From an uncultured Opitutaceae bacterium (GTDB taxonomy: Bacteria; Verrucomicrobiota; Verrucomicrobiia; Opitutales; Opitutaceae): 64,000 bases of DNA. Shown in pieces: positions 49,632-57,315 of this stretch. The position numbers and the translations under genes were made by a program. The stretch covers positions 1 to 64,000 of the forward strand of contig CALFNN010000105.1 of NCBI GenBank assembly GCA_937902925.1, written 5' to 3'. A model generated the notes under the pieces. The model was not told where the DNA came from. It did no database searches and saw only the letters and a list, made by a program, of their open reading frames with translations. Every line of letters starts with the position of its first letter. Position 1 is the first letter of the stretch.

Positions 49632-51332
49632 ATGCTGAAGAAAATTTTTGCGAAGCTGCGCGAAACGATCGCGCCCTCGCGCGCCAAGAAGCCCGCCCAT
49701 CCCCATGAAGGCGCCAAGTCGGCCGCCCAACCCAGAGCAGCGGGGGCGGCGCATCGCGGTGAGGCGCCCCGCCACGATCGCGGTGGATCGGGTCACGGCG
49801 CCCAGTCCCGCGGCGGGCGCGGGCACGAGGCGGGGCGCGGCCAGCCGCGCGACCCGCGGGACATCCCGGAACCGCGCGCGCAAGGCGGCGGACACGAATC
49901 CCGCCCGCAGCGGGAGGAGCACGGGCAACGGGGCGGTGCGCACGGCGGCGGCCAGGGCGGCCGGGGCCAGCACTCGCGGGGTGGAGGCGGGCGCGGGGGG
50001 CGCGGTGGTTCATTCGATCCGGGGCACGCCAAGCGCGAGCGGCCGACGATCGACAAGACTTTCGACCACCCGCGGACGGCGGACGTGAAGCCGGTTGTGC
50101 CGGTGGATATTCCGAAGATGGACACGGCGTTCACGGCGCTCGGGCTGTCGGACGCGCTGGCGTTCGGCGTGCAGGAAATGGGTTACGTGACGCCGACGCC
50201 GATCCAGGCGCAGGCGATTCCGGTCGTCCTGCGCGGGGGCGACGTCATCGGCTCGGCGCAAACCGGCACGGGCAAGACCGCGGCGTTTGCGCTCCCGATC
50301 ATCCAGCGCCTCGGCACGCATGGCGCGTTGCGGTGCCTGATCCTCGAACCGACGCGCGAACTCGCGCTGCAGGTGGAGGAGGCGTTTCAAAAATTCGCCA
50401 AGTTCACGGACCTGCGGGTGACGATCGTCTACGGCGGGGTCGGCTACGGGAAGCAGACCGACGACCTGCGGCGGGGAATGGATATCCTGGCGGCGACGCC
50501 GGGGCGGCTCCTCGATCATCTCGAGCAGGGCAACTGCTCGCTCGACAAGATCGACATCCTCGTCCTCGACGAAGTCGACCGGATGCTCGACATGGGATTT
50601 TTGCCGGACGTGCGCCGCATCGTGCAGAAATGTCCGCGGGACCGGCAGACGCTTTTCTTCACGGCCACGCTGCCGCCCGAGCTCGAGCAGCTGGCCGGCT
50701 GGGCGCTGCGCGATCCCCTGAAGGTCGAGATCGGCCGCCAGCGTTCGCCGGCGGAAACGGTGTCGCATGCGTTTTATCCCGTGGTCGCCTCGCAGAAGTT
50801 CGACTTGTTGCAGCTGTTGCTGGAGCAGACGACGTTCAAGAGTGTGCTCATCTTTTCGCGCACGCGGATGGGGGCCGACCGGATCGCGCACCGGCTCGTG
50901 ACCAAGGGTCACACGGTCGGGGTGATGCATTCCGACCGCAGCCAGCGGGAGCGGATCGAGGCCCTCGATGGATTCAAGAGCGGCAAATTCGAGGTGCTCG
51001 TGGCGACCGACATCGCGGCCCGCGGGCTCGACATCGCCGGCGTCTCGCACGTCATCAATTACGACGTGCCGGAAAATCCGGAAGACTATGTCCACCGGAT
51101 CGGCCGCACGGGCCGGGCGCATAACACCGGTGATGCGTTCACGCTCGTGACCGAGGACGACGTGCGCGATGCGCGCTCGATCGAGCGCTACATGGGGCTG
51201 GCGGTCGAGCGGAAGAAAATCGAGGGCTTCCCCTATATCTATTCGGCGCTGTTCGACGAAAAGGCGCTGGCGGAGATCAGTGCGGCCGCGGCCAAACCGA
51301 CGAGCCGGCTGCACCGCGGGGCGCGCCGGTAA
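49632..51332 (+). CDS. DEAD-box RNA helicase with RGG-rich N-terminal extension
   Basis: 566 residues from the ATG at 49632. Residues 15-145 are Gly/Arg/His-rich (RGGRGH, GGGGRGGRGG repeats), resembling RNA-binding RGG regions that usually sit at the C-terminus. The helicase core follows: Q motif (YVTPTPIQAQAIP), Walker A AQTGTGKT (about 212-219), motif Ib/III (TPGR; SAT is FTAT), motif II DEVD (about 311-314, in place of DEAD) and motif VI HRIGRTGRAH. It would unwind RNA in ribosome assembly or cold adaptation (RhlE-like). It has its own promoter region of about 100 bp. Confidence 0.93.
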   Translation: MLKKIFAKLRETIAPSRAKKPAHPHEGAKSAAQPRAAGAAHRGEAPRHDRGGSGHGAQSRGGRGHEAGRGQPRDPRDIPEPRAQGGGHESRPQREEHGQRGGAHGGGQGGRGQHSRGGGGRGGRGGSFDPGHAKRERPTIDKTFDHPRTADVKPVVPVDIPKMDTAFTALGLSDALAFGVQEMGYVTPTPIQAQAIPVVLRGGDVIGSAQTGTGKTAAFALPIIQRLGTHGALRCLILEPTRELALQVEEAFQKFAKFTDLRVTIVYGGVGYGKQTDDLRRGMDILAATPGRLLDHLEQGNCSLDKIDILVLDEVDRMLDMGFLPDVRRIVQKCPRDRQTLFFTATLPPELEQLAGWALRDPLKVEIGRQRSPAETVSHAFYPVVASQKFDLLQLLLEQTTFKSVLIFSRTRMGADRIAHRLVTKGHTVGVMHSDRSQRERIEALDGFKSGKFEVLVATDIAARGLDIAGVSHVINYDVPENPEDYVHRIGRTGRAHNTGDAFTLVTEDDVRDARSIERYMGLAVERKKIEGFPYIYSALFDEKALAEISAAAAKPTSRLHRGARR

Positions 51333-51345
51333 GCGGCGCCCGCGG

Positions 51346-51969
51346 TCACTCGTCGCCGTTCACGATCTTGTAGGTGATGGCGGCGACCGCGGCGCCGCCG
51401 AAATTGGCGACGAGGAAGACCCAGAGATTGCCCCACGTCTGGAGGCCCATCAGGACGAGGCCGAGGGCGACCGCGGGGTTGAAGGCGCCGCCCGACACGC
51501 CACCCACGGCGTAGGCCCCGGTCATCACCGTCATGCCGATCGCCAGGCCATAGAAGGAATTGTTCGCCGTGCCCTTCGCGGTGGCGACGTTCAGCACCAC
51601 CCAGGCGAGCGCGAAGGTGAACAGGAATTCGGCGAGCAGCGCGGCCTTCACGCCGATGGCGAAGGGCGCGGCGGACCCGATCGGCTTGAAGTAGTGGATG
51701 CACCACGAGGCGACGAAGGCGGCGGCAAACTGGGCGACCCAATAGGGGATGAGGTCGGTCGTGGTGAGCCGGCCGCGGATTCGGACCGCCAGCGATACGG
51801 CCGGATTAAAGTGTCCGCCCGAAACATGCCCGCCGGCGAAGATCATGACCATCAGGGAGGCGCCGATCGCGAGCGGCGCGAGGAGCCCGGCGTCGGGCGG
51901 GATCACGGTGCTGCCGACCGTGAAGACGAGAAAGAACGTGCCGATGAACTCGACGAGATATTTTTTCAT
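51346..51969 (-). CDS. Aquaporin-family channel (MIP), arsenic-island linked
   Basis: 207 residues with six membrane helices. Two NPA boxes are present: GHFNPAVSLAVRIRGR (first) and GAFNPAVALGLVLMG (second). In water and glycerol channels the second box is followed by an Arg (NPAR) that lines the selectivity filter; here it is Val. From memory, the Sinorhizobium AqpS channel of ars operons also has a non-Arg filter and passes methylated arsenicals. The gene is divergent from arsM with about 155 bp between, so a role in methylarsenic or arsenite passage is plausible. Confidence 0.88.
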   Translation of the reverse strand: MKKYLVEFIGTFFLVFTVGSTVIPPDAGLLAPLAIGASLMVMIFAGGHVSGGHFNPAVSLAVRIRGRLTTTDLIPYWVAQFAAAFVASWCIHYFKPIGSAAPFAIGVKAALLAEFLFTFALAWVVLNVATAKGTANNSFYGLAIGMTVMTGAYAVGGVSGGAFNPAVALGLVLMGLQTWGNLWVFLVANFGGAAVAAITYKIVNGDE

Positions 51970-52123
51970 GGGAAGCGGGAGGGGTTGGAAGCGCGACCGG
52001 ACGCGGGGAGGTTTGAAACCGGGGCGGGGAAAGACAACGCGATTTCGGCGGCGGCGAGGGAAGGCCGAATCTTTGCGTCCTGGCGCGACGATCTCCGTCA
52101 GCAGGGATGAACCAACCATCATC

Positions 52124-53020
52124 ATGACCAACGTTTCACTTCCCGATTCCGAAAAGATCCGTGCCTTTGTCCGCGAGCGCTACGGCGCGATTGCCGAGCA
52201 GTCCGGTGGTGCCGGCTGCGGCTGCGCGGCGGCCGGCGACTCGCCGGTCGCGCCCGGCGCGGGCTGCTGCTCCGACGAAAATCGCGCGGCGACCGTCGCC
52301 GAGACGAACTGTTGCGCCAGCACCTGCTGCGACGGCGGCGGCAAGTCCTACGGCGAGAAACTCGGCTACAGCGCCGACGAACTGGCCGCCGCCCCCGCGG
52401 GCGCCGATCTCGGCCTCGGCTGCGGCAATCCGCTCGCGATCGCCTCGATCCAGCCGGGCGAGACGGTGCTCGATCTCGGAAGTGGCGCGGGTTTCGACTG
52501 TTTTCTCGCGGCCCGCCAGCTCGCGGGCACGGGGCGGGTGATCGGGGTCGACATGACGGCGGCGATGATCACGAAGGCGCGGGGCAATGCCGCCAAGGGC
52601 GGCTATGCTAACGTGGAGTTCCGGCTCGGCGAGATCGAGGCCCTGCCGGTGGCGGACGCGACGGTCGACCTCATCATGTCGAACTGCGTCATCAACCTGT
52701 CGCCGGAGAAGGCGAGGGTGATGCGCGAGGCGTTTCGCGCGCTGAAGCCGGGCGGCCGGCTGGCGATCGCGGACGTCGTGGCGACAAAGCCCCTGCCGGC
52801 GGAACTGCGGAAAAAACTCGGGGCGATCGGTGCGTGCGTCGGCGGAGCGACCTTGGTCGACGAGTTGAGGGCCATGCTGGCCGAGGCCGGATTCGTGCGG
52901 ATCGCGATCACCCCGAAAGAGAGTTCGCGCGAATACATCGGGCACTGGACCGACGATCCCACGACCGGCGAATTTGTCGTGAGTGCGCTCATCACCGCGT
53001 CCAAGCTCGGGACCGCATGA
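52124..53020 (+). CDS. arsM: Arsenite methyltransferase
   Basis: 298 residues. The Cys-rich N-terminus has pairs at 48-49, 63-64 and 68-69. The S-adenosylmethionine site is DLGSGAGFDCFLAA (about 117-130). The conserved arsenic-binding cysteines of the ArsM family are recognisable as Cys100 (LGCGNPL), Cys188 (SNCVINLSPEK) and Cys238 (GACVGGA), with the 188-to-238 spacing as in the algal enzyme. It methylates As(III), giving volatile or exportable products. It overlaps the sigma factor gene by 4 bp (ATGA). Confidence 0.95.
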   Translation: MTNVSLPDSEKIRAFVRERYGAIAEQSGGAGCGCAAAGDSPVAPGAGCCSDENRAATVAETNCCASTCCDGGGKSYGEKLGYSADELAAAPAGADLGLGCGNPLAIASIQPGETVLDLGSGAGFDCFLAARQLAGTGRVIGVDMTAAMITKARGNAAKGGYANVEFRLGEIEALPVADATVDLIMSNCVINLSPEKARVMREAFRALKPGGRLAIADVVATKPLPAELRKKLGAIGACVGGATLVDELRAMLAEAGFVRIAITPKESSREYIGHWTDDPTTGEFVVSALITASKLGTA

Positions 53021-53568
53021 CCGCCGTCGCCTTCGATTCCACGGTGGCCGGCTTCACCGGCCGATTGCGGGCGTTTATCCGGCGGCGGGTGCGGGACGAC
53101 GCGACGGCCGACGATCTCACGCAGGAGACGATGCTGAAAGTCTTCCGCTCGCGCGCCTCGCTGCGCGACGGCCAGCGGCTGGAAGCATGGCTTTACCGGA
53201 TCGCGCGAACGACGCTGATCGATCACTACCGGCGCCAGCGGCCGAGCGAGGAATTACCGGCGGCCCTCGCGGCGGAACCGGCGGACGAGATGGCGGCGCT
53301 CCGGGCGGCGGTCGTGGCGTCGATGCGGCGGTTCCTCGAGGAATTGCCGGAGGCGTATCGGGAGCCGGTCCGGCTGGCGGAACTCGAGGGACTGCCGCTG
53401 GCCAAGATCGCGCTGCGCCTGAACCTTTCGCTGACGGCGGTGAAATCGCGCGTGCGGCGGGGCCGGGCGATGCTGAAGCAAAAGCTGCAGGATTGCTGCC
53501 GGTTCGAATTCGACCGGCTGGGCCACATGATCGGCTGGGAGCGGCGGCGGCCGGCGTGCTGCGCGTGA
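53017..53568 (+). CDS. SigZ-like ECF RNA polymerase sigma factor
   Basis: 183 residues. Region 2 (about 12-75; RRRVRDDATADDLTQETMLK, FRSRASLRDGQRLEAWLYRI) and region 4 (about 115-165; LPEAYREPVRLAELEGLPLA, KIALRLNLSLTAVKSRVRRG) are complete. Its tail has vicinal cysteines (QDCCRFEFDRLG and RRPACCA), which is typical of the ars-linked SigZ branch. No anti-sigma gene is adjacent. Translation is coupled to arsM. Cys pairs suggest direct arsenite sensing, but this is an inference. Confidence 0.88.
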   Translation: MTAVAFDSTVAGFTGRLRAFIRRRVRDDATADDLTQETMLKVFRSRASLRDGQRLEAWLYRIARTTLIDHYRRQRPSEELPAALAAEPADEMAALRAAVVASMRRFLEELPEAYREPVRLAELEGLPLAKIALRLNLSLTAVKSRVRRGRAMLKQKLQDCCRFEFDRLGHMIGWERRRPACCA

Positions 53569-53601: not shown

Positions 53602-53623
53602 CATATTCCCGAATGGGAATATG
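53602..53623. promoter_or_regulatory. Candidate ArsR operator
   Basis: CATATTCCC (53602-53610) and GGGAATATG (53615-53623) form a perfect inverted repeat with a GAAT spacer. It overlaps the annotated arsR start codon. Such ATAT-flanked palindromes are typical ArsR/SmtB binding sites. Confidence 0.75.
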
Positions 53624-54010
53624 CATGACCGCGTGGACCTGGTGAAAATCTATGAGTGCCTGTGCGACCGGACGCGGCTGCGGCTCCTGAACGTGCTGGC
53701 GCAGGGGCCGCTCTGCGTCTGCCACTTCCAGGAGATTTTGCGCGAGCCGCAGGTGAAGATTTCCAAGCACCTCGGCTACCTGCGCACGCGGGGGCTCGTG
53801 GCCTACGAGCGGCAGGGCAACTGGATGGTCTACGAACTGCCGGCGAAGCCCTCGCGCGAACTGCGGGCGAATCTCGCGTGCCTCCAGGATTGCGCGCGGG
53901 AGAACCCGGTGTTCCGGCGCGACCTCGCGCGCCTCGAAAAGCTCACGCCGAAATTCGCCGAGACCAGTCCGTGCGGCTGCCGGCCGGCCGCGAAGACGAC
54001 GGCGGGATGA
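53621..54010 (+). CDS. arsR: ArsR-family arsenic-responsive repressor
   Basis: 129 residues. The winged helix runs from about 8 to 90 (LVKIYECLCDRTRLRLLNVL, EILREPQVKISKHLGYLRTR). The As(III)-binding cysteines are in GPLCVCHFQ (Cys32, Cys34), with further Cys near the C-terminus (CLQDCAREN; SPCGCR). The start ATG lies inside the operator palindrome. A GTG at 53633 (VDLVKIYECL) would leave the operator upstream and gives the length most ArsR proteins have, so the true start may be there. It should repress this cluster until As(III) binds. Confidence 0.93.
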   Translation: MHDRVDLVKIYECLCDRTRLRLLNVLAQGPLCVCHFQEILREPQVKISKHLGYLRTRGLVAYERQGNWMVYELPAKPSRELRANLACLQDCARENPVFRRDLARLEKLTPKFAETSPCGCRPAAKTTAG

Positions 54011-54019
54011 TTTTATCCG

Positions 54020-54538
54020 ATGACTCCGAACACCAAGCCACCGCTCAAAGTCCTGATTCTCTGCACGGGCAACTCGGCCCGCTCGATCCTGGGCGAGTAT
54101 CTCCTGAGAAAAATCGGGCGCGGACGCTTCGAGACGTTCAGCGCCGGATCGAAGCCGACGGGGCGCGTGAATCCGCTCGCGGTGCGGGTGCTGCGCGAGA
54201 AATACGGGCTCGATGCGAGTGCGGCGCGCTCGAAATCGTGGGACGAGTTCAAGGGCGTGAAGTTCGATTTCGTGATCACGGTCTGCGACCACGCGCGCGA
54301 GGCCTGCCCGGTGTGGCCGGGGCAGCCGGTGCTGGCGCACTGGGGTTCGCCGGACCCGGCGGCAGTCGAGGGCACGGAGGAGGAAAAGCACTGGGCGTTT
54401 GTGCAGGTGGCGTCGCAGATCGCGCGGCGGGCCGAACTCCTTTGCGCGCTGCCGGAGGCAAAACTCCTCGACGGGCTCGCCGTGCGGGCGATCGGCGAGC
54501 AGGAAAAACTGGAAAACGAAACGGGAATGAAACGATGA
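54020..54538 (+). CDS. arsC: Arsenate reductase, low-molecular-weight phosphatase type
   Basis: 172 residues. The Cx5R loop is ILCTGNSARS (nucleophile Cys15). The redox cascade cysteines are Cys89 and Cys96 (VCDHAREACPVWPG), seven apart as in the thioredoxin-coupled ArsC of Staphylococcus and Bacillus. It reduces As(V) to As(III) for Acr3 export. It begins 9 bp after arsR and overlaps the next gene by 4 bp. Confidence 0.94.
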   Translation: MTPNTKPPLKVLILCTGNSARSILGEYLLRKIGRGRFETFSAGSKPTGRVNPLAVRVLREKYGLDASAARSKSWDEFKGVKFDFVITVCDHAREACPVWPGQPVLAHWGSPDPAAVEGTEEEKHWAFVQVASQIARRAELLCALPEAKLLDGLAVRAIGEQEKLENETGMKR

Positions 54539-55041
54539 ACTCCGATTCCACCAAGGAAACCTGCGGATGCGCGGCGCCGGAAGCCTTTGCGCCCGGCATG
54601 ACGGTATCGGCGTTGAAGGCGGCGCTGGCGGCGGCACCGGACCTTCCGCTCACGGCGCTCTGGCCGGATGGCGACCCGATCGAGGCGCATTTTCATGTCA
54701 CCGAGGTGGGCCGGGTGCAGAAGGATTTTGTCGATTGCGGCGGGACGGTGCGCCGGACCGTGACGTGCCTCCTGCAAACGTGGGTGGGCGACGACACGGA
54801 GCACCGCATCACGGCGGGCAAGCTCCTGAAGGCGTTCGAGCACGCGGCGCCGATCCTCGGCGGGGACGACCTGCCGGTGGAACTCGAATATGAGGCGTGC
54901 AACGTGATCCAGTTCACGGTGGCGGCGGTCGAGCGGGAGGCGGCGCGGCTCGTCATGCGATTGGGCGGGAAGCACACCGATTGCCTCGCCAAGGAATTGT
55001 GCGTGCCGTCGGCGCGCGCGGCGGGCGGCGGATGTTGCTAG
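54535..55041 (+). CDS. DUF6428 protein of the ars operon
   Basis: 168 residues. The core [20 protein letters not shown] then [20 protein letters not shown] matches DUF6428, a family seen in ars operons. Cysteines cluster at both ends ([14 protein letters not shown]), fitting soft-metal binding. Function is unknown; a chaperone or sensor of arsenic species is possible. It overlaps arsC by 4 bp and acr3 by 10 bp. Confidence 0.82.
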
Positions 55042-56123
55042 CTGCAGTCCCGGGCGAAAGGCGCGACCTGAATCCGACCCTGAAAAAACTCTCGTTTCTC
55101 GACCGTTACCTGACGGCGTGGATTTTCCTCGCAATGGCGGCGGGAGTGCTGGCGGGACGGTTCCTGCCGGCGCTGCCCCGGCTCCTGACCGCGTGGAGCG
55201 TCGGGACGACGTCGATCCCGATCGCGGCGGGCTTGATCCTGATGATGTATCCGCCGCTCGCGAAGGTGCGCTACGAGGAACTGCCCGATGTGTTTCGCGA
55301 CAAGAAGGTGCTCCTGCTGTCGCTCGTGCAGAACTGGCTCGTGGGCCCGATCCTGATGTTCGCGCTCGCCGTGATTTTCCTGCGCGACCGGCCCGAGTAT
55401 TTCGCGGGGCTCGTCCTGATCGGGCTCGCCCGCTGCATCGCGATGGTGATCGTGTGGAACGATCTCGCCGAGGGGAGCCGGGAATATTGCGCGGGCCTCG
55501 TGGCCGCGAACGCGCTTTTCCAGGTCTTCTTTTTTGCGCCGATGGCGTGGCTCTTCTTGAAGGTGCTGCCGCCGCTCGTGGGCGTGACCCTGGGCGAACT
55601 GGACTTGTCGGGGGTGACGATCGGCGCCGTGGCGCAGAGCGTTTTTATCTACCTCGGAATTCCGTTTCTCGGCGGATTGGTGTCGCGGTTCGGCCTGCGG
55701 CGCGGGGGGCGGGTGGCCTGGTATGACGAAAAATTCCTGCCGGCGGTCAGCCCGGTCACGCTCGTGGCGCTCCTGTTCACGATTGTCGTCATGTTCAGCT
55801 TGAAGGGCGACACGGTCATGCGCATTCCGCTCGACGTGCTGCGGGTGGCGCTGCCGCTCGTCGTCTATTTCGGGATCATGTTTGTCGTCACGTTTTGGGC
55901 CAGCGTGCGGGCGGGGACCGACTACGCGCGGGCGGCGACCCTCGCGTTCACGGCGTCGGGGAATAACTTCGAACTGGCGATCGCGGTCGCGGTGGGGGTG
56001 TTTGGCATCGCCTCGGGGGCGGCGTTTGCGGCGGTGATCGGGCCGCTGGTCGAGGTGCCGGCGCTGATCGGACTTGTCAGCGTAGCGTTGGCTTGGAAAC
56101 GCCGGCTCGGTCGCGCAACGTGA
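55032..56123 (+). CDS. acr3: Acr3-type arsenite efflux transporter
   Basis: 363 residues with about ten membrane helices. The conserved functional Cys135 lies in [20 protein letters not shown] and the family segment [18 protein letters not shown] is present. It exports As(OH)3 by proton antiport. The ATG at 55032 overlaps the DUF6428 gene end by 10 bp. The preceding residues of the overlap are not conserved, and a later start near 55080 is possible. Confidence 0.94.
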
Positions 56124-56130
56124 TGGCCGC

Positions 56131-56661
56131 ATGAGCGGTCAATCCATCCAAGTCGAACCCATGTCCGCCGCGGACTGGCCGGCGGTGGCGGCGATCTGGC
56201 GGGAAGGGATCGCCACGGGACACGCGACGTTCACGGCGGAGCCCGTGGCATCGTTCGCGGCATTTTGCGAAGGAAAGATCCCGATCGGGAACCTAGTGGC
56301 GCGAGACGCATCGGGCGGCGCCGTGGTCGGGTGGACGACGCTGTCGAAGGTGTCGAGTCGCTGCGTCTATGAAGGCGTGGGTGAACTGGGCGTCTATGTG
56401 GCGGCAGCGGCGCGGGGCCACGGGGTCGGAAGTGCGTTGATGCGCCAACTGATCGCGCGGACGGAGGCGGCGGGCATCTGGACCTTGCAGGCGGGGATTT
56501 TCCCGGAGAATGCCGGAAGCCTCGCGTTGCACGCGCGGCATGGCTTCCGCGAAGTCGGCCGCCGGGAACGGATCGGAAAGATGACGCACGGGCCGCGGGC
56601 GGGACAGTGGCGCGACGTGTTGCTGCTGGAGCGACGGAGCCCGGTGGCGGGACGGGATTGA
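56131..56661 (+). CDS. GNAT acetyltransferase, ArsN/PAT-like
   Basis: 176 residues. The acetyl-CoA motif is AAAARGHGVGSALM and the family block PENAGSLALHARHGFREVG is typical of phosphinothricin/methionine-sulfoximine acetyltransferases and of the ArsN1 enzymes that detoxify arsinothricin. Direct position after acr3 (7 bp) supports an ArsN role, inactivating organoarsenical antibiotics. Phosphinothricin or other amines are alternatives. Confidence 0.82.
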   Translation: MSGQSIQVEPMSAADWPAVAAIWREGIATGHATFTAEPVASFAAFCEGKIPIGNLVARDASGGAVVGWTTLSKVSSRCVYEGVGELGVYVAAAARGHGVGSALMRQLIARTEAAGIWTLQAGIFPENAGSLALHARHGFREVGRRERIGKMTHGPRAGQWRDVLLLERRSPVAGRD

Positions 56662-56721
56662 GCGCGGTTTCGCCGGATAAAAGTTGAAAGTTGAAAGCGG
56701 CCTGCGACCGTGATCGTTCGC

Positions 56722-57315
56722 ATGAAACTGGACATTCCGCCGGGCGACTTCGCCGGCTACATTTTTGACCTCGATGGGACGCTCGTCGACACGATGCCGC
56801 TGCATTACCGGGCGTGGGACGAGGCGATGCGGTCGGTCGGGCTCAAGTGCCCGCTCGACGAGGAGTTGTTTTATTCCCTTGGCGGAGTGCCGACCCTGAA
56901 GGTCGCGGAATTGATCGCGAAACACTACGGGCTGTCGGTCGACCCGCACGCCGTGTTCGACCACAAGGAGGCGCTCTTCAAAGCGATTCAGAAAGACGCG
57001 AAGCTGATCGAGCCCGTGGTGGCGATCGCGCGGCGGGTGGCGCAGACGCACCCGGTGGCGATCGCCTCGGGCGGCCCGCGGGACATCGTGCGAAAATCGC
57101 TCGAACTGGCCGGGCTCGCGCCGCTCTTCAAGGTGGTCGTGACGCCGGAGGATGTGGTGCACGGGAAGCCGGCGCCGGACATGTTCCTGCTCGCGGCGCA
57201 AAAAATGGGCGTGACGCCGGAGCAATGCCTCGTGTTCGAGGACGCCGAACCCGGCATGCGGGCGGCGACGGCGGCCGGGATGAAGTTTGTCCGCGTGCCG
57301 AGCAGGCGGAAGTGA
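56722..57315 (+). CDS. HAD-superfamily phosphatase, beta-phosphoglucomutase-like
   Basis: 197 residues from the ATG at 56722; a GTG at 56710 is an alternative. Motif I FDLDGTLVDTM, a small helical cap, motif II ASGG (in AIASGGPRDIV), motif III Lys in VVHGKPAPDMF and motif IV FEDAEPGM. The cap and the DGTLVDTMPLHYRAWDEA stretch fit the beta-phosphoglucomutase/sugar-phosphate phosphatase subgroup (YqaB-like). Substrate unknown. It is preceded by AGTTGAAAGTTGAAAG, a simple direct repeat at 56685-56700. Confidence 0.88.
   Translation: MKLDIPPGDFAGYIFDLDGTLVDTMPLHYRAWDEAMRSVGLKCPLDEELFYSLGGVPTLKVAELIAKHYGLSVDPHAVFDHKEALFKAIQKDAKLIEPVVAIARRVAQTHPVAIASGGPRDIVRKSLELAGLAPLFKVVVTPEDVVHGKPAPDMFLLAAQKMGVTPEQCLVFEDAEPGMRAATAAGMKFVRVPSRRK

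Follow-up and report, generated by a model that had tools for sequence, protein, structure and literature searches.

The locus examined here raises the question of what a membrane channel is doing beside a cluster of arsenic genes. In a stretch of 64,000 nucleotides from an uncultured Opitutaceae bacterium (this whole stretch is called 'the window'), a gene of the aquaporin superfamily (MIP) lies divergent from arsM, and its product has Val at the position of the selectivity filter where Arg is usual. AqpS carries methylated arsenicals and has Val in its filter in the place of Arg. An earlier note on this DNA had combined the Val and the arsM neighbour into a proposal, namely that the channel lets arsenic compounds pass, and that the products of the methylase could leave through it in the manner of AqpS.

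The identity of the gene was as the note had described it. The reading frame gives 207 amino acids and a stop, with the two boxes HFNPAVS and AFNPAVA, and both the translation and the alignment to rice NIP2;1, from which all filter positions were read, put Val167 after the second NPA box. The filter consists of Ile35, Ala152, Gly161 and Val167 (hereafter IAGV), with Val at the usual Arg site and no charged residue. The gene is indeed divergent from arsM, at a distance of 154 bases (Table 1). The protein scores 104 bits against Pfam PF00230 (MIP), for a cut-off of 25, and its AlphaFold model (17 rows) has a mean pLDDT of 86 and a pTM of 0.85. A fold search with this model had 7cjs_A as its top match (rice NIP2;1 according to a sequence search; Z 28.7, 2.0 A, 200 residues); the best-matching solved structures are ordinary aquaporins, and the top rows are tied, so that no subfamily is singled out. 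The Pfam match, the two NPA boxes and the aquaporin fold place the protein in the MIP superfamily, and it is the only MIP detected in the whole 6-Mb assembly. It is not an AqpZ: the NCBIfam AqpZ profile gives 104 bits, under the cut-off of 256, the filter is unlike Phe-His-X-Arg, and the protein does not group with AqpZ rows in the tree described below. Nor does it belong with the AqpN/NIP-like proteins, as it lacks the filter Arg and stands apart from NIP2;1 and the bacterial AqpN-like rows in the same tree. As for the genes of the cluster, the DUF6428 protein recurs across the ars clusters of the family.

Table 1. Features of the channel gene, its neighbours and the candidate control elements in the window
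Feature	Position	Strand	Basis or remark
DEAD-box helicase, convergent with aqp in the window and many relatives	49632..51329	+	domain search
MIP channel gene (aqp), AqpX-like, filter IAGV	51346..51969	-	translation, Pfam, filter alignment
Second NPA box and Val167 (NPAV), LE2 filter position	51469..51480	-	translation, alignment
Filter residue Gly161, LE1	51487..51489	-	rice NIP2;1 alignment
Filter residue Ala152, helix 5 position	51514..51516	-	rice NIP2;1 alignment
First NPA box, Asn55-Pro56-Ala57	51799..51807	-	translation
Filter residue Ile35, helix 2 position	51865..51867	-	rice NIP2;1 alignment
Element upstream of aqp, AAATCGCGTTGTCTTT on the aqp strand	52030..52045	-	at most 4 mismatches in 16/79 family loci
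Element upstream of arsM, TGCGTCC-N15-CGTCAGC, candidate SigZ promoter	52074..52102	+	conservation
arsM, arsenite methyltransferase	52124..53017	+	NF008823, 322 bits, cut-off 263
sigZ, ECF sigma factor	53017..53565	+	TIGR02959, 182 bits, cut-off 169
Candidate ArsR operator, palindrome CATATTCC-N6-GGAATATG	53602..53623	.	genome pattern search
arsR	53621..54007	+	listed start 53621; relatives suggest a start at about 53633
arsC-like, low-molecular-weight phosphatase type	54020..54535	+	over Pfam cut-off; NCBIfam arsC 86 of 174 bits, below cut-off
DUF6428 protein of the ars cluster	54535..55038	+	Pfam
acr3, arsenite efflux transporter	55032..56120	+	421 bits, cut-off 283
ArsN1-like acetyltransferase	56131..56658	+	below NCBIfam cut-off, 118 of 170 bits
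HAD-type phosphatase-like ORF, named from sequence	56710..57312	+	ORF list; adjoins aqp in several ars-less relatives

Among 150 genomes of the window's family, 94 gave a match at E 0.001 or better, some of them through other MIPs only, and 81 a strong channel match (E below 1e-30). Eighty strong loci were collected, those of G085, G100 and G137 being left out, and the resulting family alignment had 80 rows: 79 loci and the window (one locus, L078, was dropped as its start is cut off). Val occupies LE2 in 76 of these rows, and the full IAGV filter is present in 67; the four others have Ile, Thr, or, in two cases, a broken or partial sequence. The second box itself is altered to DPA in the row with Ile (L058) and to NAA in the row with Thr (L117). 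In a scan of genome_contigs, the best 80 of 557 confirmed relatives, a set that shares some contigs with the family set (for example L123/L067 and L182/L107), had Val in 76 cases and Ile in 4, with IAGV in 68; their titles place them in Verrucomicrobia, Planctomycetota, Actinomycetes, Bacteroidetes, Nitrosomonas, Chloroflexi and more. Conserved neighbours of the clade outside the family were sought in these loci, and no shared gene family turned up in more than five of them (with crude ORF calling). Across the order, 18 of 177 genomes matched at E 1e-30, eight from the window's family and ten from other families.

A tree was built from 36 hand-chosen MIPs, a small set with long branches and without an AqpM or an AqpS row. 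The 20 window-type rows formed one clade in it, with support 100/100 and a long stem, separate from the AqpZ rows and from the group of rice NIP2;1 and AqpN-like proteins. Two of the 20 deviate from IAGV (IAAV or IAGI), while all 16 rows outside the clade keep Arg, including the Rubrobacter ars-operon channel. The Val is no chance variant: it is a trait of a whole monophyletic clade. Within the family, IAGV is found irrespective of ars genes (25/28 ars-adjacent rows, 36/44 rows without adjacency), and a search across the family alignment for a filter residue marking the ars-adjacent rows found none. Since the Val is clade-wide and is also present in members without ars neighbours, it is no signature of arsenic transport, contrary to what had been proposed, and the exchange of Arg for Val in the filter is by itself no ground for calling a protein an arsenic channel.

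In the gene neighbourhood, ars genes were detected by tblastn with the ars proteins of the window, a procedure that distant ArsR, ArsC or ArsB types may escape, and 72 of the 80 family rows could be assessed, the other 8 having too little flank. The channel lies immediately beside ars genes in 28 of the 72, in two arrangements. In 23 rows, the window included, it is divergent from them, and its partner is arsR in 18, arsM in four (the window, L042, L043 and L082) and the DUF6428 gene in L040. In the five others it stands in tandem behind arsC or acr3, without the helicase, at distances of 69 (L059), 75 (L063), 260 (L054), 394 (L052) and 466 bases (L072, labelled by hand). The ars-adjacent channels range from 56 to 82% identity to the window protein. 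On the channel tree, obtained by a quick method that leaves 30 of 73 inner branches open, the number of changes required is 11 for ars adjacency, 8 for its divergent form and 3 for its tandem form; the 8 changes of the 'divergent' label compare with a mean of 20.0 after shuffling, none of 500 shuffles being as low, a clustering that can arise from near relatives alone. We conclude that the ars neighbourhood is real and lineage-specific, and is more than an accident of one genome.

The same survey also yielded observations that speak against a role in arsenite handling. No ars gene was detected in 42 of the 72 rows, and two more had a distant cluster only. Among the best 80 of 557 relatives from genome_contigs, of which 53 have 2.5 kb on both sides, 77 lacked an ars match; ars genes were found only at L123, L130 and L182, all with the helicase synteny of the window. 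The presence of acr3 in the genome does not follow that of the channel (51/81 genomes with it, 40/69 without). Of the 22 divergent loci, 20 have the helicase next to the channel and one more is too short in flank; of the 42 loci lacking ars genes, 7 have it there, with labels that may miss a few cases such as L084. The helicase, which is not known to have an arsenic role, is retained about as faithfully as the ars genes. Finally, a stretch made of HAD, aqp and helicase, without an ars match, is found in L046, L047, L048 and L069. The distance from HAD to aqp is 101 to 460 bases in these and in L066, of which only 1.7 kb of flank are available. As HAD adjoins the channel without ars genes in L046 to L048 and L069, the cluster was therefore gained or lost beside a stationary channel.

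Candidate control elements were sought in the intergenic regions. The element upstream of aqp is also present in rows without an ars match (L069, L073 and L084; the flank of L077 is too short). For arsM, the pattern TGCGTCC-N13-17-CGTC[AT]GC precedes the gene in all five loci where it lies near the channel (the window, L042, L043, L055 and L082), and sigZ is found in four of the five, L042 with its short flank being the exception. A SigZ-like pattern with 3 mismatches was unspecific, and the strict form was used for genome counts: it has two exact places in the whole genome, that of arsM included; one such element also occurs in L084, which has no arsM. That it is a SigZ promoter is a guess. 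As to ArsR, the sole perfect ATATTCC-N5-7-GGAATAT of the genome lies at 53603-53622, at arsR and more than 1.6 kb from aqp, and no ArsR-type palindrome was found in the gap between aqp and arsM of the window. In loci where arsR itself is divergent from the channel, the palindrome with at most 4 mismatches is present in the gap between the two genes, near arsR, in 17 of 18 cases (L102 is the exception), and aqp and arsR may share control there. In the window, since the perfect palindrome is at arsR and not at aqp, an arsenic role of aqp would probably rest on another promoter. A search for sigma-70 promoters at 51300-52200 found none.

Other MIPs also occur at ars clusters. A second MIP match was seen at the ars cluster of four relatives (L038, L044, L060 and L067), and no acr3 was found at E 1e-60 in the genomes of the same four (G128, G108, G060 and G027). 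The second MIP is of the GlpF type, with the filter Trp-Ile-Ala-Arg, in L060 and L067, and L038 and L044 have weak partial matches only. The arsenite path in these relatives is probably the second MIP, the IAGV channel being present too. A search for AqpS among plasmids, chromosome-sized records included, gave 174 and 1479 records with a match; AqpS was not identified in the 18 that were opened, a result that does not bear on its placement. Of the channels read in these records (L213-L215 were left out), two are relatives of the window clade with NPAV, namely L032 (Mycolicibacterium, 63% identical) and L033 (Rhodococcus, with a broken frame), and the others have Arg in the filter (L034-L037, L118 and L199-L206). 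The genes next to L032 and L033 are of the VIT family, DUF2231 and heavy-metal ATPases, and none is an ars gene. The AqpZ-like L034 and L035, on Aminobacter and Bradyrhizobium plasmids, adjoin GroEL and a monooxygenase cluster. On an Alicyclobacillus plasmid (L204), an AqpN-like frame with internal stops lies near arsM and arsN1 annotated for arsinothricin biosynthesis.

The reading that we prefer, and hold tentatively as somewhat less than an even prospect, is that the window channel is an AqpX-like pore through which small neutral solutes pass passively, and which may have been recruited here for a flux of As(OH)3. The gene, its filter, its clade and its recurrent ars neighbours are observed; that the pore is open, what solutes it takes and any part it has in arsenic handling is what we infer. 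An AqpX-like MIP would let small uncharged molecules through passively; its aliphatic, Arg-less filter is that of the whole clade. In the window's family this channel has become a recurrent neighbour of ars clusters. Neutral As(OH)3 would move through it downhill in both directions: arsenite made by ArsC would leave, outside arsenite would enter, and the pump ACR3 would work alongside. Nearly as likely, because relatives exist that have the same flanks and no ars cluster, is that the channel is a bystander: water, gas or some other small solute would pass an ordinary AqpX-like pore, and the ars cluster would lie next to it only because a stable chromosomal stretch received or retained that cluster between aqp and HAD. 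It would fit this account that the clade is widespread without ars genes nearby among the best 80 of 557 relatives, that HAD near aqp with the helicase opposite is found free of ars genes in the five relatives named above (L066 included), that the aqp upstream element persists in rows free of ars genes, and that the only perfect ArsR palindrome is remote from aqp. Against a mere bystander stand the separate tandem arrangement with acr3 or arsC, in which the helicase is absent (5 rows), and the spread of the ars-adjacent rows over so wide a range of identity.

An exit for methylated, pentavalent arsenicals produced by ArsM, like that of AqpS, is what the earlier note had in mind, and here the arsM neighbour was the second reason given. 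It is the divergent partner in the window and three relatives, and lies 1.6 kb from the channel in one further row (L055); across the family, arsM turns up a little more often where the genome has the channel (25/81) than where it lacks it (9/69; Fisher P = 0.011, kinship ignored). However, arsM adjoins the channel in just 4 of the 28 ars-adjacent rows, and is present anywhere in 6 of the 28 corresponding genomes, compared to 17 of 42 genomes that bear the channel without ars adjacency (P = 0.12). A conserved upstream element of its own precedes arsM, and sigZ follows it in four of five such loci; the Val is a clade trait; and in the tree the clade is separate from every AqpZ and NIP/AqpN-like row. 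The same tree, which has no AqpS row, lends no support to kinship with AqpS. We therefore regard this exit as quite unlikely, and as a weaker reading than passive As(OH)3 flux. Of the note's arsenic-channel proposal, the genetic link thus holds, being found in 28 of 72 rows and in two arrangements, while neither the Val nor the arsM neighbour serves as a reason for it. In ArsM itself, selenocysteine was considered after notes of a 'TGA inside', and was rejected: in the one case read, the TGA is an ordinary stop. A broader version of the As(OH)3 reading, in which the AqpX-like clade consists of metalloid channels and its ars-adjacent Opitutaceae members pass As(OH)3, plus methylated neutral products where arsM is beside them, seems unlikely to us; if true, it would provide the first natural substrate for AqpX. 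Least probable of all is a channel for some other small neutral solute tied to arsenic stress, such as hydrogen peroxide: the filter is uncharged and a bacterial aquaporin releasing H2O2 is described in the accessible part of PMC6912568, but no neighbour or motif pointing to H2O2 was found.

How does the window channel compare with systems already described? A limited literature search combining aquaporin, arsM, acr3 and Verrucomicrobi found no joint report. MIPs in ars operons as such are known: the portion of PMC4435449 available to us counts 18 in a survey of about 2,500 strains. Excerpts of PMC6205960 describe AqpS and an AqpS-ArsC fusion, and the passage of arsenite through MIPs for GlpF and AqpS. 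The AqpS of Sinorhizobium meliloti (SMc02648) and the window channel are both MIPs linked to ars genes; from what these excerpts and those of PMC4531530 state, however, AqpS stands in for the ArsB pump, whereas the window has acr3 and a separate, divergent channel gene (PMC6205960, PMC4531530). The window channel thus does not replace the arsenite pump, acr3 being part of its cluster; the arrangement nearest to that of AqpS is found instead in the acr3-less loci with a second MIP. The Rubrobacter ars-operon channel (L200) resembles that of the window in lying beside arsM, arsR and arsC, but its filter is Phe-Ala-Ala-Arg and it groups with rice NIP2;1, outside the window's clade.

The closest counterparts are of an already published kind, the IAGV/AqpX-like channels, and the window channel, judged by its sequence, is a member of that group: it has the IAGV filter and falls in one clade with such proteins. 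A 2019 paper already lists the IAGV filter for Opitutus terrae, Methylacidiphilum, Singulisphaera and Isosphaera, and in the sections of PMC6912568 that we could consult its function is left open. The four filter residues of the window channel are identical to those of these aquaporins, for which the same sections give no ars neighbourhood, in contrast to the window. In our set, L123, titled Opitutus, has ars genes and the synteny seen in the window, and its channel is 67% identical to that of the window. The AqpX grade was defined in 2021 by an aliphatic, Arg-less filter; many of its members have Val at LE2, and about 75% of its nodes are bacterial; according to the same partial text, little water and no glycerol pass through the kinetoplastid AQPX, which speaks against an arsenite role (PMC8355241). 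The window channel shares with AqpX, as there described, the aliphatic filter, the non-aromatic residue in helix 2, the Val at LE2 and the Ala at Froger position P2, a likeness in described residues. The Arg-less aliphatic filter, the LE2 Val and the P2 Ala are all present in the window; three of the 20 clade rows have Gly at P2, and one has Val. Positions P3 to P5 are roughly Val, Phe and Leu in the window (assigned by hand and by eye), as compared to Gln-Tyr-Trp in kinetoplastid AQPX, from which bacterial members may differ. No link between AqpX and arsenic appears in the available text of PMC8355241, unlike the neighbourhood seen in the window. The solutes of the IAGV/AqpX channels are left open in what we had of PMC6912568 and PMC8355241, and the recurrent ars adjacency offers a concrete candidate substrate.
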